Below, in pieces: positions 50,710 to 55,258 of a stretch of DNA of 64,000 nt; within the stretch, counting starts at the first letter, position 1; each line of letters begins with the position of its first letter. Under the pieces are notes generated by a model that did no database searches, was not told the origin of the DNA, and saw only the letters and a program-made list of their open reading frames with translations. The stretch spans positions 7,374,501 through 7,438,500 of the forward strand of contig NZ_CP104578.1 in assembly GCF_036826855.1 (NCBI RefSeq), written 5' to 3'. A program made the position numbers and the translations under genes. The DNA is from Streptomyces sp. SJL17-4. GTDB lineage: Bacteria > Actinomycetota > Actinomycetes > Streptomycetales > Streptomycetaceae.

Positions 50710-52875
50710 ATGCGGAAGCAGATCGACGACGACCCCTACGTGTGGGACGACCCCTACCTGTGGCTGGAAGACATCTCCGGCGAGGCCGCCCTCGCCTGGG
50801 TGGCCGAGCGGAACGCGGAGACCGCGGGAGCGGTGACCGGGGGCGACGAGTTCGGGGCGCTGAAGGCGCGGCTGCGCGAGGTGCTCGACGCCTCCGACCG
50901 GATTCCGTACACCGTGCGGCGCGGTGAGCACCTCTACAACTTCTGGCGGGACGCGAAGCACCTGCGCGGGGTGTGGCGCCGGACGACCCTGGAGCAGTAC
51001 CGCGAGGACACCCCCGAGTGGGAGGTGCTCCTCGACATCGACGCGCTGGCCGCCGCAGAGGACGAGAAGTGGGTCTGGGACGGGGCACGTGTACGGCGGC
51101 CGGAGTACGACCGGGCCCTGGTACGGCTCTCGCGGGACGGTGGGGACGCCGTCGTCGTGCGCGAATTCGACCTCGGCACACGGGAGTTCGTCGACGACGG
51201 ATTCCGGCTGCCCGAGGCCAAGACGCGGATCGGATGGGCCGGCGACGACACCGTCCTCGTCGGCACTGATCTCGGACCGGACTCGCTCACCGACTCCGGC
51301 TACCCGCGTACCGTCCGCAGATGGCGGCGCGGCACACCCGTCGAGGACGCGCCACTCGTCTACGAGGCCGACCGGGCGGACGTGGCCGCCTGGGGCTACC
51401 GGGACCCGACACCCGGGTTCGAGCGGGAGTTCGTCGGCCGCTCCCTGGACTTCTTCCGCAGCGAGACGTACCTCCTGCGCCCCGACGGCACCCGCGCACG
51501 GATCGAGGTGCCCGACGACGCGAGCGCCTACGCCCATCGGCAGTACCTGATCGTCACCCTCAAGTCCACCTGGCTCGGGCAGCCGACGGGCTCGCTGCTC
51601 GCCTTCGACTTCGACGCCTTCCTGGCGGGCGATCGCACCCATGAGGTGCTGTTCACCCCCGACGCGCGGACCGCGCTCGCCGGGCACACCTGGACCCGCA
51701 ACCACCTCCTCCTGGAGACGATGAGGGACGTCAGCACCCACATCGAGGTACTCACCCCCGCCTCCGACGGCGGCGGCTGGACGCGCGAGCCGCTCGTCGG
51801 CGTCCCGGCCCTGTCCGCCGTCAGCATCGTCGACACCGACCCCGACGTGTCCGACGAGTACTTCCTCGACGTTTCGGGGTTCCTCCAGCCCTCCACCCTC
51901 CACCACGGGCGGATCGGCGCCGGCTCGGAGGCCCTCAAGCAGGCCCCGCACCACTTCGACCCCGCCGGCCTCACCGTCGACCAGCACTTCGCGACCTCCC
52001 GGGACGGCACGCGCGTCCCGTACTTCGTCGTCGGCCCGGACCGCGCCACCGCGCCCGGCCCCGGGCCCACCCTCCTCTACGGCTACGGAGGCTTCGAGGT
52101 CTCCCTCACCCCGTTCTACGGCGGGGTGACGGGCCGGGCCTGGCTGGAACGCGGCGGCACCTACGTCATCGCGAACATCCGCGGCGGCGGCGAGTACGGC
52201 CCCGACTGGCACCAGGCCGCGCTCGGCGCCGAACGCCCCCGGGCCTTCGAGGACTTCGCGGCCGTCGCCGAGGACCTCGTCGCGCGGGGCATCACCACGC
52301 CCGCCATGCTCGGCGCCAAGGGCGGCAGCAACGGCGGGCTCCTCATGGGCGCCATGCTCACCCGCCACCCCGAGCTCTTCGGCGCGATCGTCGCCCAGGT
52401 GCCGCTGCTCGACATGACCCGCTTCCACAAGCTCCTCGCGGGCGCGTCCTGGATCGCCGAGTACGGCGACCCCGACGACGAGGCCGACCGCCCCCATCTG
52501 CTCGAACTCTCCCCGTACCACCGGCTCGCGGCGGACCGGGACTACCCGCCGGTCCTCCTGATGACCTCGACCCGCGACGACCGCGTCCACCCCGGGCACG
52601 CCCGGAAGACGGCCGCCCGGCTGCGGGAACTCGGCCACCGGGTCCTCTTCCACGAGAACACCGGCGGTGGGCACGCGGGCGCGGGCGACAACGAACAGGC
52701 CGCCCACAACAGCGCGCTCGTGCACACGTACCTGTGGCAGCAGCTCACGGGAGCGGGAGCGGAAGCGGAACCGGGAGCAGGCGGGGGAGCGGGAGCGGAG
52801 GTGCCGGCCATCCCCGGACCGCTCACAGCCACCCCGACCGCTGCGCCTGCAGCGCCATCTGGAACCGGCTCGTAG
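50710..52875 (+). CDS. S9 prolyl oligopeptidase family serine peptidase (721 aa)
   Basis: Cytosolic oligopeptidase cutting after proline or a related residue. An N-terminal beta-propeller (DDPYVWDDPYLWLEDISGEA onwards) is followed by the alpha/beta-hydrolase domain: the catalytic Ser540 lies in GAKGGSNGGLLMGAM, the Asp at 623/624 in TSTRDDRVHPGHARK, and His655 in HENTGGGHAGAGDN. GANIRGGGEYGPDWHQAA-like sequence precedes the nucleophile. The last about 40 residues are an Ala/Gly/Pro-rich tail encoded by GGAGC-type repeats; it runs 53 bases into the convergent regulator gene. No signal peptide. Confidence 0.92.
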   Translation: MRKQIDDDPYVWDDPYLWLEDISGEAALAWVAERNAETAGAVTGGDEFGALKARLREVLDASDRIPYTVRRGEHLYNFWRDAKHLRGVWRRTTLEQYREDTPEWEVLLDIDALAAAEDEKWVWDGARVRRPEYDRALVRLSRDGGDAVVVREFDLGTREFVDDGFRLPEAKTRIGWAGDDTVLVGTDLGPDSLTDSGYPRTVRRWRRGTPVEDAPLVYEADRADVAAWGYRDPTPGFEREFVGRSLDFFRSETYLLRPDGTRARIEVPDDASAYAHRQYLIVTLKSTWLGQPTGSLLAFDFDAFLAGDRTHEVLFTPDARTALAGHTWTRNHLLLETMRDVSTHIEVLTPASDGGGWTREPLVGVPALSAVSIVDTDPDVSDEYFLDVSGFLQPSTLHHGRIGAGSEALKQAPHHFDPAGLTVDQHFATSRDGTRVPYFVVGPDRATAPGPGPTLLYGYGGFEVSLTPFYGGVTGRAWLERGGTYVIANIRGGGEYGPDWHQAALGAERPRAFEDFAAVAEDLVARGITTPAMLGAKGGSNGGLLMGAMLTRHPELFGAIVAQVPLLDMTRFHKLLAGASWIAEYGDPDDEADRPHLLELSPYHRLAADRDYPPVLLMTSTRDDRVHPGHARKTAARLRELGHRVLFHENTGGGHAGAGDNEQAAHNSALVHTYLWQQLTGAGAEAEPGAGGGAGAEVPAIPGPLTATPTAAPAAPSGTGS

Positions 52876-53806
52876 CCCCGAGCCGGGCCATCAGGACCTG
52901 CACCCGGCGGAAGAGCGTACGACGGCTGACGCCGATCTCCCGGGCGATCACCTCGTCGCTCGCCCCCGCCGCGAGCAGCCGGAGCAGACGCCGGTCGGCG
53001 GGCAGCAGCCCCGCCGGCCGGGCCGAGCGGCCGTGGAACGGCAGCGCGTTCTGCCAGGCCTGCTCGAACAGCGCCACGAGCGCGGAGAGCAGGCCGCACG
53101 GCTGCACGACCAGCATCGTGTTGTACACGTCCGTCTCCTTGATCGACAGGGCGACCAGGGCGTACGCGTCATCGATGATCACGAGCTTGACCGGCACCGA
53201 CGGAAGGACCCGCGCCTGCTCGCCGGCCTCGATGCACGGCTCGATCGAGTTCTCCAACTGCCCGGGGTGCTCAAGGGACTCCCGCGAGTACACGACCCGC
53301 TGGGTCACCCCACGCACGAGCGTGGCCAGCGCGTCGTCCGTGGCGCCGACGAGGGGGAAGTACGGCGGCGAGTCGAACTGCCGGATCTGCTCCCGTGCGC
53401 TCGTCCACGCCTGACGCATCCGGAGCCCGATGGCGTCACCGGTCACCACCTCCACCAGCGGATCGTGATACCCGGCGAGCCGCTGCCGCCGGAACGACTC
53501 GAACGCGCCCCCGACGGTGATCCGGGACGCGTCGAGCTCGGCCGCCCGGCGCCGCCCGAGGATCTCCAGACCTGCGGCGGGAGGCACCGGCGCCACGACG
53601 TCGGAGCCCTCCTCCGCGGTGCTCGCCAGCCCGCTGTCGACCAGCTCGCGGTACGCCTCCGCCAGCGCCTCGTCGCCGAGCCCGGCCGCGGCGCCGATCG
53701 AACTCAGCGGCGCGGGCCCGCACTCCAGGAGCGTGCGGTACACCAGGGCGGCCTCGTGCCCGACCCCCAGAAGCCGAAGGGCCTCGCTGAGTTTCTCGTT
53801 CGCCAT
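52823..53806 (-). CDS. LuxR-type HTH regulator with TrmB-like N-terminus (327 aa)
   Basis: ATG 53806 is chosen: MANEKLSEALRLLGVGHEAA starts a winged-helix (TrmB-like) domain (LGVGHEAALVYRTLLECGPA). A middle region like the PLD-type sensor of streptomycete regulators follows (REQIRQFDSPPYFPLVGATD; VKLVIIDDAYALVALSIKET). The C-terminus is a LuxR HTH: LLPADRRLLRLLAAGASDEV then IAREIGVSRRTLFRRVQVL. Upstream codons in frame are non-coding in character. Such proteins are orphan regulators, and the target is not evident. Its tail overlaps the convergent oligopeptidase gene. Confidence 0.88.
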   Translation of the reverse strand: MANEKLSEALRLLGVGHEAALVYRTLLECGPAPLSSIGAAAGLGDEALAEAYRELVDSGLASTAEEGSDVVAPVPPAAGLEILGRRRAAELDASRITVGGAFESFRRQRLAGYHDPLVEVVTGDAIGLRMRQAWTSAREQIRQFDSPPYFPLVGATDDALATLVRGVTQRVVYSRESLEHPGQLENSIEPCIEAGEQARVLPSVPVKLVIIDDAYALVALSIKETDVYNTMLVVQPCGLLSALVALFEQAWQNALPFHGRSARPAGLLPADRRLLRLLAAGASDEVIAREIGVSRRTLFRRVQVLMARLGATSRFQMALQAQRSGWL

Positions 53807-54045
53807 GCGTCGATTATCGACGTCTTCGATTCGGGGCCGTCGGTCCCCGCCGTTCATGTGCCGTGACGGGCTCGAGGGGCACCTCGGACGCCCGCAGACA
53901 GGGGTCGCCGCCCCCTGGGCCGACAGCCTCGCGAGAGGCGCCCACCCACCCTCCCAGGCGTTCGCCAAAACCCCTCTGACCTGGTGTTTTGCGGGAATCC
54001 GCCTAGGCTGACAGAGGTCTGGAAGACACCGTCGGAGGGGACTTC

Positions 54046-55209
54046 ATGAGCGACGCCGCACACACGTACGACGCCAGTCGGATCCAGGTGATCGAGGGGC
54101 TGGAGGCCATCCGGAAGAGGCCGGGGATGTATGTCGGATCGACCTCGCAACGAGGTCTGCACAACATGGTGCTCGAAGCCGTGAGCTCGGCCGTGCACGA
54201 AGTGCTGGCGCGTGGTGCGGGCTCCGTCGACGTCACGCTCACCGCCGACGGCGGTGTCCGGGTCGCCGACGACGGGCCCGGCGTCCCCTTCGAGAGCGTC
54301 GGGGACGCCGCCGCTCCCGGACTCGAAGCCCAGCTGACGCGTGTGTACGCCGGGCGGGATCCGGGCGCACATCGTGTGGCGAGGCTCGACCTCTTCTCTG
54401 TCGGGCTGAGCACCGTCAACGCGCTGTCGAGCCGCCTGACCGCCGAGGTGCGGCGCGACGGAGCGCGCGAGATCCAGGAGTACGCGCGCGGTGTCGCACT
54501 CACCCCGCCCACGCCCGCCGGGCCCGCGACGGGGAGTGGGACCACCCTCGCCTTCTGGCCGGACGCCGACATGTTCGAGACGACGGATTACTCGTACGAC
54601 GCGCTGGTGGAGGTCGTCAGTGCGCTCGCCCTCCTGAACCGGGGCCTGCGCGTGTCCCTGACGGACGAACGCCCTCCGGGCGGGGCCGTGACGGAGCGGT
54701 TCGAGGGCGGGGTACGGGACTTCGTCGCCTTCCTGGAGACCGCCGCCGAGGGGCAGCCCGTCCACCCGGACATCCTCGCCTTCGAGGTGGAGGACCCGCG
54801 GATGGCGGGGTCGGCGGAGGTGGCCCTCCGGTGGTGCGACTCGGGGGAGGCGGTGGTCCGAAGCTTCGCCAACAGCCGTCGCACCCATGAAGGCGGCGAG
54901 CACGTGGAGGGCTTCCGCACCGGCCTTGCGGCCGCGGTCACCGCGTACGCGAGGGAGCGGCGTCTTCTGACGGCGGCGGACCCGGATCTCGATGCCGACC
55001 GGGTCGGGGAGGGTCTCACGGCGGTCGTGTCGGTGAAGCTGGACCGGGTGGAGTTCAGCGGAGCCACCCGCACGCTCCTGGGCGGCGCCGAGGTGCGGTC
55101 CTGCGTAGAGGACGCCGTCCGCGTGCACGTCGGCACATGGCTGGAGCGGCACCCGGAGCAGGCCTCGGCCGTCGTCGGCCGCATCGTCCGGGGAGCGCGC
55201 CGGGACTGA
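54046..55209 (+). CDS. stand-alone degenerate GyrB ATPase/transducer paralogue (387 aa)
   Basis: Matches the N-terminal GHKL plus transducer part of GyrB, with no TOPRIM or C-terminal domain before the stop. GyrB-like landmarks: QVIEGLEAIRKRPGMYVGST, RGLHNMVLEAVSSAVHEVLA and DDGPGVP. The ATPase Glu is kept (Glu44), but the Mg-binding Asn is Ser48 (VSS for VDN). The ATP-lid GLHGVG reads DLFSVG, and the transducer loop QTK reads ATR (VEFSGATRTLLGG). ATP turnover is therefore doubtful. ATG 54046 has GGAGGGG upstream. The gene looks intact, not decayed. Possible roles: a decoy or regulator of gyrase, or a repurposed ligand-binding protein. Confidence 0.82.
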   Translation: MSDAAHTYDASRIQVIEGLEAIRKRPGMYVGSTSQRGLHNMVLEAVSSAVHEVLARGAGSVDVTLTADGGVRVADDGPGVPFESVGDAAAPGLEAQLTRVYAGRDPGAHRVARLDLFSVGLSTVNALSSRLTAEVRRDGAREIQEYARGVALTPPTPAGPATGSGTTLAFWPDADMFETTDYSYDALVEVVSALALLNRGLRVSLTDERPPGGAVTERFEGGVRDFVAFLETAAEGQPVHPDILAFEVEDPRMAGSAEVALRWCDSGEAVVRSFANSRRTHEGGEHVEGFRTGLAAAVTAYARERRLLTAADPDLDADRVGEGLTAVVSVKLDRVEFSGATRTLLGGAEVRSCVEDAVRVHVGTWLERHPEQASAVVGRIVRGARRD

Positions 55210-55222
55210 GCCGTCGAGCCGC

Positions 55223-55258
55223 GGCGCTGCTACTCAGCCACGGGTGAGTAGCAGCGCC
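55223..55258 (+). terminator. very strong hairpin after the GyrB-like gene
   Basis: Perfect 14-base arms (GGCGCTGCTACTCA at 55223-55236 and its complement at 55245-55258) with an 8-base loop, 14 bases after the stop. It separates the GyrB-like gene from the next gene on the same strand. Confidence 0.8.

Follow-up and report, generated by a model that had tools for sequence, protein, structure and literature searches.

Aminocoumarin producers carry a resistant GyrB (GyrB-R), an extra GyrB paralogue in streptomycetes that is a full-length, working topoisomerase subunit. In the 43-kDa half of GyrB (GyrB43), Asn46 binds Mg, Lys337 forms a salt bridge to the gamma-phosphate, and Gln335, which also contacts the gamma-phosphate, is a two-state switch; the N-terminal brace of each subunit extends to the nucleotide held by the other (PMC4159350). 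One active ATPase site is enough for gyrase to close its N-gate (PMC5983639).

The gene described here lies in a 64,000-nucleotide stretch of DNA from Streptomyces sp. SJL17-4, which was analysed as a whole and is called the window below. The host genome also has an ordinary GyrB and a ParE-like gene, and the product of the window gene is 45% identical to the host's own GyrB. It contains the GHKL ATPase and transducer domains of gyrase/topo IV subunit B. An earlier sequence-only reading had described an intact 387-residue GyrB half that ends after the transducer and has no TOPRIM, and frame and domain analysis confirmed this. The terminator claimed by the same reading is no more than a possible one, as the hairpin after the stop codon has no T run. 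The features of the gene are:

54046..55209, plus strand: class I (defined below) TOPRIM-less, ATP-site-dead GyrB homologue of 387 aa, with GHKL domain at residues ~8–221 and transducer at 222–385
54052..54144, plus strand: codons 3–33, the N-terminal arm and RKRPGMYVGST segment, kept
54343..54405, plus strand: codons 100–120, the ATP lid, the most variable class I segment and nearly invariant in GyrB
55223..55258, plus strand: hairpin 3' of the stop codon, without a T run, a possible terminator

In alignments, Tyr8 and Ile13 of the window protein correspond to E. coli Tyr5 and Ile10. Its predicted structure is that of a monomer, in which the arm is modelled at low confidence.

Distribution, length and descent of the short GyrB homologues

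We define class I as one clade of proteins of ~380–413 aa that have lost Asn46, Gln335 and Lys337 and whose genes carry a conserved upstream block, and the window protein shows all of these features. A protein search gave 1356 proteins above threshold. Among the best 120 of these (the window protein and 119 relatives), every relative is at least 58% identical to the window protein across 96% or more of its length, most by far have 380–413 aa (extremes 367 and 466), and the named hosts are Streptomyces, Kitasatospora and Embleya. Where source names are given, they are mostly 'DNA gyrase subunit B' or 'ATP-binding protein'.

The sequence-only reading had looked to orthologues of the same length in other Streptomyces as a check, and the short form is indeed widespread: a profile of 42 members detected class I in 45 of 392 Streptomyces genomes (47 matches, the window's own included). 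In this draw, class I scored at least 496 bits, the next match was a class II protein (see below) at 466 bits, and GyrB followed from 460 bits. A family-wide draw of 297 Streptomycetaceae genomes gave class I in 53 of them (57 rows), representing 6 of 17 genera, with class I assigned by the author's reading of scores and frame lengths; G536 and G540 (479 bits, against 473 for the top GyrB) were counted as class I on their short frames, and a second G530 match (461 bits, 444-aa frame) was placed in no class. When 394 genomes were drawn class-wide, covering 137 genera, class I was absent outside Streptomycetaceae at an E-value of 1e-130 or better. The sole matches from elsewhere at that level, G659 and G661, have frames that run ~260 residues past the transducer and are GyrB-like, and for this reason class I looks specific to Streptomycetaceae. 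Two class I copies are present in each of G095 and G199 (Streptomyces draw) and G447, G462 and G467 (family-wide draw). The paired copies of G095 (L058/L059) and G199 (L169/L170) are ~150 kb apart, and the match to the second G199 copy begins only at residue 62–63.

Among the 85 distinct loci fetched, six are incomplete or broken: the start is missing from L042 and L170, L044 has a frame change, L088 and L101 diverge before the end, and L122 has an internal stop. These six and exact duplicates are omitted from the set of 79 class I members used below. In 78 of the 79, the frame ends no more than 15 residues from the end of the window protein (30 residues beyond it in the remaining one), whereas 40 of 40 GyrB frames extend 257–258 residues further, so that TOPRIM and the C-terminal GyrA/ParC-binding region are absent from class I. 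An aminocoumarin-resistant, full-length GyrB paralogue was ruled out, since the frames lack the TOPRIM half. In-frame stops are absent from 46 of 47 class I rows in the Streptomyces draw and from 48 of 57 in the family-wide draw. Five of the nine family-wide rows with stops were read, and the stop is at or near the natural end in L109, L120, L124 and L125, and internal in L122.

A second group, class II, also stops at the transducer; its members share 45–48% identity with the window protein. Searching with one of them gave 70 class II proteins down to 496 bits, followed by full-length GyrB from 458 bits. In a maximum likelihood tree built from 40 of the 79 class I rows, 8 class II rows, 24 of the 40 GyrB rows and 2 ParE rows (74 in all), class I and class II each form one clade and the two are joined in one clade with SH-aLRT support of 99, in a tree that comes from a quick search, carries SH-aLRT values only and has long stem branches that call for caution. 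Together they are placed beside Streptomyces GyrB on a weaker node (86), in what is a tree of GyrB and ParE only. The simplest history would be a single loss of the TOPRIM half in an ancestor within Streptomycetaceae. A Topo VI B lineage was considered and rejected, as the best sequence matches of the window protein are to GyrB. The PADLOC anti-phage defence models gave no matching family at E-values up to 1.

Estimates of dN/dS for class I were 0.26–0.59 by NG86 (12 pairs chosen by the author) and 0.10–0.31 by YN00 (11 of the 12), and for GyrB 0.03–0.28 by NG86 (six informative pairs). Between G000 and G162, the class I copies are 83% identical and the GyrB N-halves 99%, showing that class I evolves faster. 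In a set of 16 genomes, the distances between class I copies show no clear correlation with those between GyrBs (Mantel rho 0.15, with 319 of 2000 permutations as high), as expected if class I moves between hosts by transfer. Recent truncation or a pseudogene, which a full-length, TOPRIM-bearing orthologue in relatives would have indicated, is rejected by the spread, clade structure, dN/dS and constant frame length, and no such orthologue was found. Judged by sequence comparison, class I is a maintained family, kept by selection. The earlier suggestion that the gene is probably selected for something other than topoisomerase activity is supported by the lack of a full-length orthologue, the constant length and dN/dS below 1; the roles it offered as examples, namely binding of gyrase or of a gyrase inhibitor, or signalling, would be candidates.

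Residues lost and residues kept

The loss of key ATP residues reported for the window protein holds throughout class I: Asn46, Gln335 and Lys337 are each kept in 0 of 79 class I proteins and in 40 of 40 GyrBs. The serine noted at the place of the Mg-binding asparagine (Ser48) is correct for the window protein but is not a family trait, as 58 of the 79 have Arg there, 8 Trp, 6 Gln, 4 Leu and 2 Pro, with Ser in the window protein alone. Among the 70 class II proteins, neither Asn46 (63 have Tyr) nor Gln335 is kept in any, and the Lys337 place is Lys in 11 and Arg in 55. The catalytic Glu42 survives in 58 of the 79 class I proteins and in 64 of the 70 of class II, and Arg76 is lost in all but 6 of the 79. 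The ATP lid has an entropy of 2.16 bits in class I versus 0.01 in 40 GyrBs, and 2 of 366 alignment windows are as high. It is less degraded in class II (0.65), where Lys103 is found in 51 and Tyr109 in 69 of 70 proteins; the Tyr109 place is Tyr in 2 of 79 class I proteins. Of the lid motif LHAGGKF, all 40 GyrBs have the AGG, against 3 of the 79 proteins in class I and none of 8 in class II. Judged by its residues, class I cannot run the ATP cycle, and the pattern of losses suggests that ATP binding has gone.

Other parts are well kept. The RKRPGMYxGS segment has an entropy of 0.39 bits in class I (0.00 in GyrB), and residues 8–33 taken together are among the least variable of class I, with 14 of 361 alignment windows as low; the arm proper (residues 8–20) stands at 1.16 bits against a class I average of 1.23. 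Of the arm contact residues, Tyr5 is found in 75 and Ile10 in 74 of the 79 class I proteins; the adenine-pocket residues Asp73, Gly77 and Thr165 are kept in 73, 73 and 76. In the transducer cavity, 74 of the 79 class I proteins and 66 of the 70 in class II retain Arg286. Arg136 is kept in 63 of 79 class I, 70 of 70 class II and 2 of 2 ParE proteins, and in only 10 of the 50 GyrBs of the class II search. Full-length GyrBs of these bacteria mostly have Thr at this coumarin-contact place (37 of 50 and 31 of 40 in two sets). Class I is acidic, with a median net charge of -12, compared with -16.5 for GyrB.

Upstream block, neighbours and replicons

Upstream of the gene are the following features:

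52823..53806, minus strand: divergent regulator gene, with weak LuxR/TrmB-like Pfam matches below cut-off
53828..54045, plus strand: noncoding DNA block of ~218 bp that accompanies class I genes across different neighbourhoods
53977..53990, plus strand: TGACCTGGTGTTTT, the best conserved core of the upstream block
54004..54009, plus strand: TAGGCT, candidate -10 box, of which the T, A and last T (TAnnnT) are invariant in 42 members; putative role
54034..54040, plus strand: GGAGGGG ribosome-binding site, read in the sequence and conserved in the alignment of upstream regions

The block has a mean column identity of 68% in an alignment of 42 members picked by the author out of the 79, and conservation falls to nothing beyond it. 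TGACCTG is invariant in the 42 aligned members; it occurs no more than 120 nt from the start in 73 of 79 members, and in 72 of those 73 it lies at 66–69 nt. The upstream region in the window has no match to the sigma-70 consensus. RNAalifold found no conserved pair in the block and Rfam gave a chance match only. Not one upstream reading frame stays open across all 79 members, though at 73% G+C this test has little power. Its pattern of conservation marks the block as a DNA-level element, probably an operator together with a promoter.

The host genome has one exact copy of the core extended by its next two letters, AT, and two further copies with one mismatch. Across 150 Streptomyces genomes the 14-mer core has 46 exact sites, versus 0 for the reversed pattern, and by position 8 of the 46 are class I and 38 are not. 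Thirty of these loci were read (L179–L208); four are class I and, because the other 26 share no single gene or spacing, though a few of them agree in twos or threes, no regulon is claimed for the core. By eye, two of the sites outside class I are before CitMHS-like transporter genes and two are beside tRNA genes. The divergent regulator and the class I gene have a common intergenic region, and the regulator is kept in the closest kin of the window (L033–L035).

Neighbouring genes were surveyed by codon-score gene calls at 32 loci and the window (including three class II and two partial loci), followed by all-against-all BLAST. The GyrB-like gene itself was recovered in 32 of the 33 stretches, and no constant neighbour or operon partner of class I was found, the commonest other family occurring in 6 of 33; families seen in four or five stretches come mostly from the closest kin L033–L035. 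Among these families, compared by BLAST and unnamed, there is no recurrent biosynthetic or resistance gene family beside class I. Related plasmids have some genes in common, namely a lamin-tail gene in L094 and L099, and a Ku gene in L095 and L098, both linear plasmids, where it lies ~1 kb downstream of the class I gene and faces it. A gene for an ATP-dependent DNA ligase is found within ~1 kb (L099) and ~8 kb (L094) of the class I gene.

All plasmids examined are linear, 9 of 9 with class I and 5 of 5 with class II, these being raw counts without a Streptomyces plasmid baseline. Linearity may be usual among the large plasmids of Streptomyces. Of the 22 class I genes located on contigs of more than 8 Mb, 17 map to the outer 15% at one end or the other, though some of these contigs may be rotated (in G110, gyrB is at 2.1 of 9.9 Mb). 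Accessory Streptomyces genes generally favour the chromosome arms.

The class II gene follows an inward helicase gene, in the same direction, at 4 of 9 loci (L090, L210, L091 and L063), of which L090 and L210 are strains of one species. At all four, this arrangement is found within ~6 kb of a linear plasmid or chromosome end. HA and DEAD/ResIII domains are present in the L090 and L091 helicases, that of L210 is annotated 'Helicase associated', and that of L063 was recognised by eye. A helicase neighbour is absent in the stretches read for L062 and L064 (both by eye), L092 and L093, and the ninth locus (L156) is without gene calls. Near class I, no telomeric helicase is seen in the annotated surroundings on 8 of 9 plasmids. 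The ttrA helicases are transcribed inward at replicon ends and are required for conjugation of SLP2 (PMC8743542), a text in which the word gyrase is absent. From their place, direction and domains, the helicase neighbours of class II may be TtrA itself, and the two genes could possibly form a telomere or transfer module.

Possible functions and comparison with known systems

From its residues, the class I product probably works as a clamp or brake rather than an enzyme. The reading we tentatively prefer is that this pseudo-GyrB would be an ATP-independent N-gate half whose main partner is the host's GyrB or ParE, and by which gyrase would be tuned or braked. The N-gate half of GyrB would have become an ATP-dead, non-cutting protein in the ancestor of one Streptomycetaceae clade, and would still form an N-gate type dimer for which ATP is not needed, with the resident GyrB (or ParE) as its presumed main partner. 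Its own pocket being dead and the link to GyrA absent, it would lend its arm to the ATP site of GyrB, and thereby occupy the N-gate and tune or brake gyrase. Expression would be from its own conserved promoter block, and spread between replicons would be as a single-gene unit. Since a single active ATPase site closes the N-gate, a dead partner could be latched by ATP-bound GyrB. A role in completing the site of a partner that is intact would account for the retained Tyr and Ile of the arm, and the lack of a recurrent neighbour family agrees with a partner that all hosts encode, for example GyrB. The loss of phosphate-side residues while the arm contacts, Asp73, Thr165 and Arg286 are mostly kept also fits a brake, as do the contrast between the variable lid and the constant RKRPGMYxGS segment and dN/dS below 1. 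Against it, the arm at residues 8–20 is near the family average in variability, and the contact residues and RKRPGMYxGS may be kept for folding; the structure model is monomeric with a low-confidence arm; class I evolves faster than GyrB and includes partial or broken copies; and a homodimeric, ATP-free clamp or a ligand decoy would explain most of the same residues. More broadly, and just as tentatively, the family could be one of widespread, mobile, ATP-dead N-gate halves that form mixed N-gates with gyrase or topo IV, or that close on DNA free of ATP, and so reset the topology of linear replicons; it would then be a bacterial pseudo-subunit of type IIA topoisomerase serving as regulator or clamp.

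By analogy, class I could instead be an ATP-independent homodimeric clamp that holds duplex DNA in the transducer cavity and perhaps serves the ends or transfer of linear replicons, which we consider unlikely though worth weighing. The linear plasmids and the outer position of most class I genes on the large contigs would suit such a role, but both may be general in Streptomyces; moreover, the window gene is ~1.1 Mb from the chromosome end, a telomeric helicase is missing from the annotated surroundings of nearly all the class I plasmids, and the net charge is acidic, though less so than that of GyrB. The retained cavity arginine and the class II genes behind an inward telomeric helicase gene, two of the four from one species, speak for the clamp, and plant MTOPVIB, which lacks ATP binding, dimerises without ATP and binds DNA, offers a precedent (PMC11077084). 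Distinctly less probable is a decoy or sponge for inhibitors of the GyrB ATP pocket, for example streptomycete aminocoumarins. It is possible because the adenine/coumarin side of the pocket is largely kept (Asp73, Gly77, Thr165 and Arg136), and disappearance of the phosphate side would remove competition by ATP; Arg136, universal in class II and infrequent in GyrB, rapid evolution and patchy spread would suit an arms race. Two further drug-contact residues are nevertheless lost, Asn46 throughout class I and Arg76 almost so, the DxGxG box may be kept for folding alone, and no recurrent biosynthetic or resistance gene family adjoins class I.

A decoy for, or arms-race product with, protein toxins that attack the GyrB ATPase domain is very improbable. 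Tyr109, the Fic target, is nearly gone from class I, though almost always kept in class II. The toxin Cpe1 cuts GyrB at LHAGGKF (PMC12136450), so the AGG count, complete in GyrB and close to nil in the short proteins, touches the attacked site itself, which a decoy should keep. That class I consists of decaying, functionless GyrB fragments is hardly credible and, for the family, largely refuted: the low identity of the G000 and G162 copies relative to their GyrB N-halves and the six damaged or partial loci would agree with decay, but dN/dS is below 1, the members form one clade of constant length with a conserved upstream block, and in-frame stops are missing from most rows.

Our searches of open-licence papers gave no description of a TOPRIM-less, ATP-dead GyrB family. 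The names 'DNA gyrase subunit B' and 'ATP-binding protein' hide a maintained family of gyrase halves whose ATP site appears dead. As partners of gyrase, if that reading is true, they would be a natural means of braking an essential antibiotic target; as ATP-free DNA clamps, if that one is true, they would parallel the B subunit of the meiotic topoisomerase VI. With at least 190 natural sequences (at least 120 class I, including that of the window, and 70 class II), the family sets the ATPase of GyrB43 apart from its dimer and DNA functions, and it offers a lead, open to testing, on how linear Streptomyces replicons manage topology and transfer.

Among known systems, the 43-kDa half of GyrB (E. 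coli 1EI1 and 4PRX, M. tuberculosis 3ZKB, M. smegmatis 6ZT3) has the same fold, domain order and transducer end point, and class I keeps its arm contact residues, RKRPGMY segment and Arg286. Unlike GyrB43, class I is a separate gene, Asn46, Gln335 and Lys337 are absent, the lid is degenerate, and there is no TOPRIM or GyrA-binding part, a combination that would make the family a pseudo-enzyme branch of GyrB. A truncated GyrB of Myxococcus xanthus (PDB 3CWV, released 2008) is a free-standing structural parallel, with 26% identity and from another phylum. GyrB-R and class I are both extra streptomycete GyrB paralogues, but the former is full-length and the latter a half. TtrA, the telomeric DEAD-box helicase of Streptomyces linear replicons, is unrelated as a protein to class I and class II. 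MTOPVIB/TOPOVIBL resemble class I as relatives of a GHKL topoisomerase B subunit that have lost ATP binding, as class I probably has, and differ from it in belonging to the Topo VI lineage, in being eukaryotic and in having SPO11 as partner.
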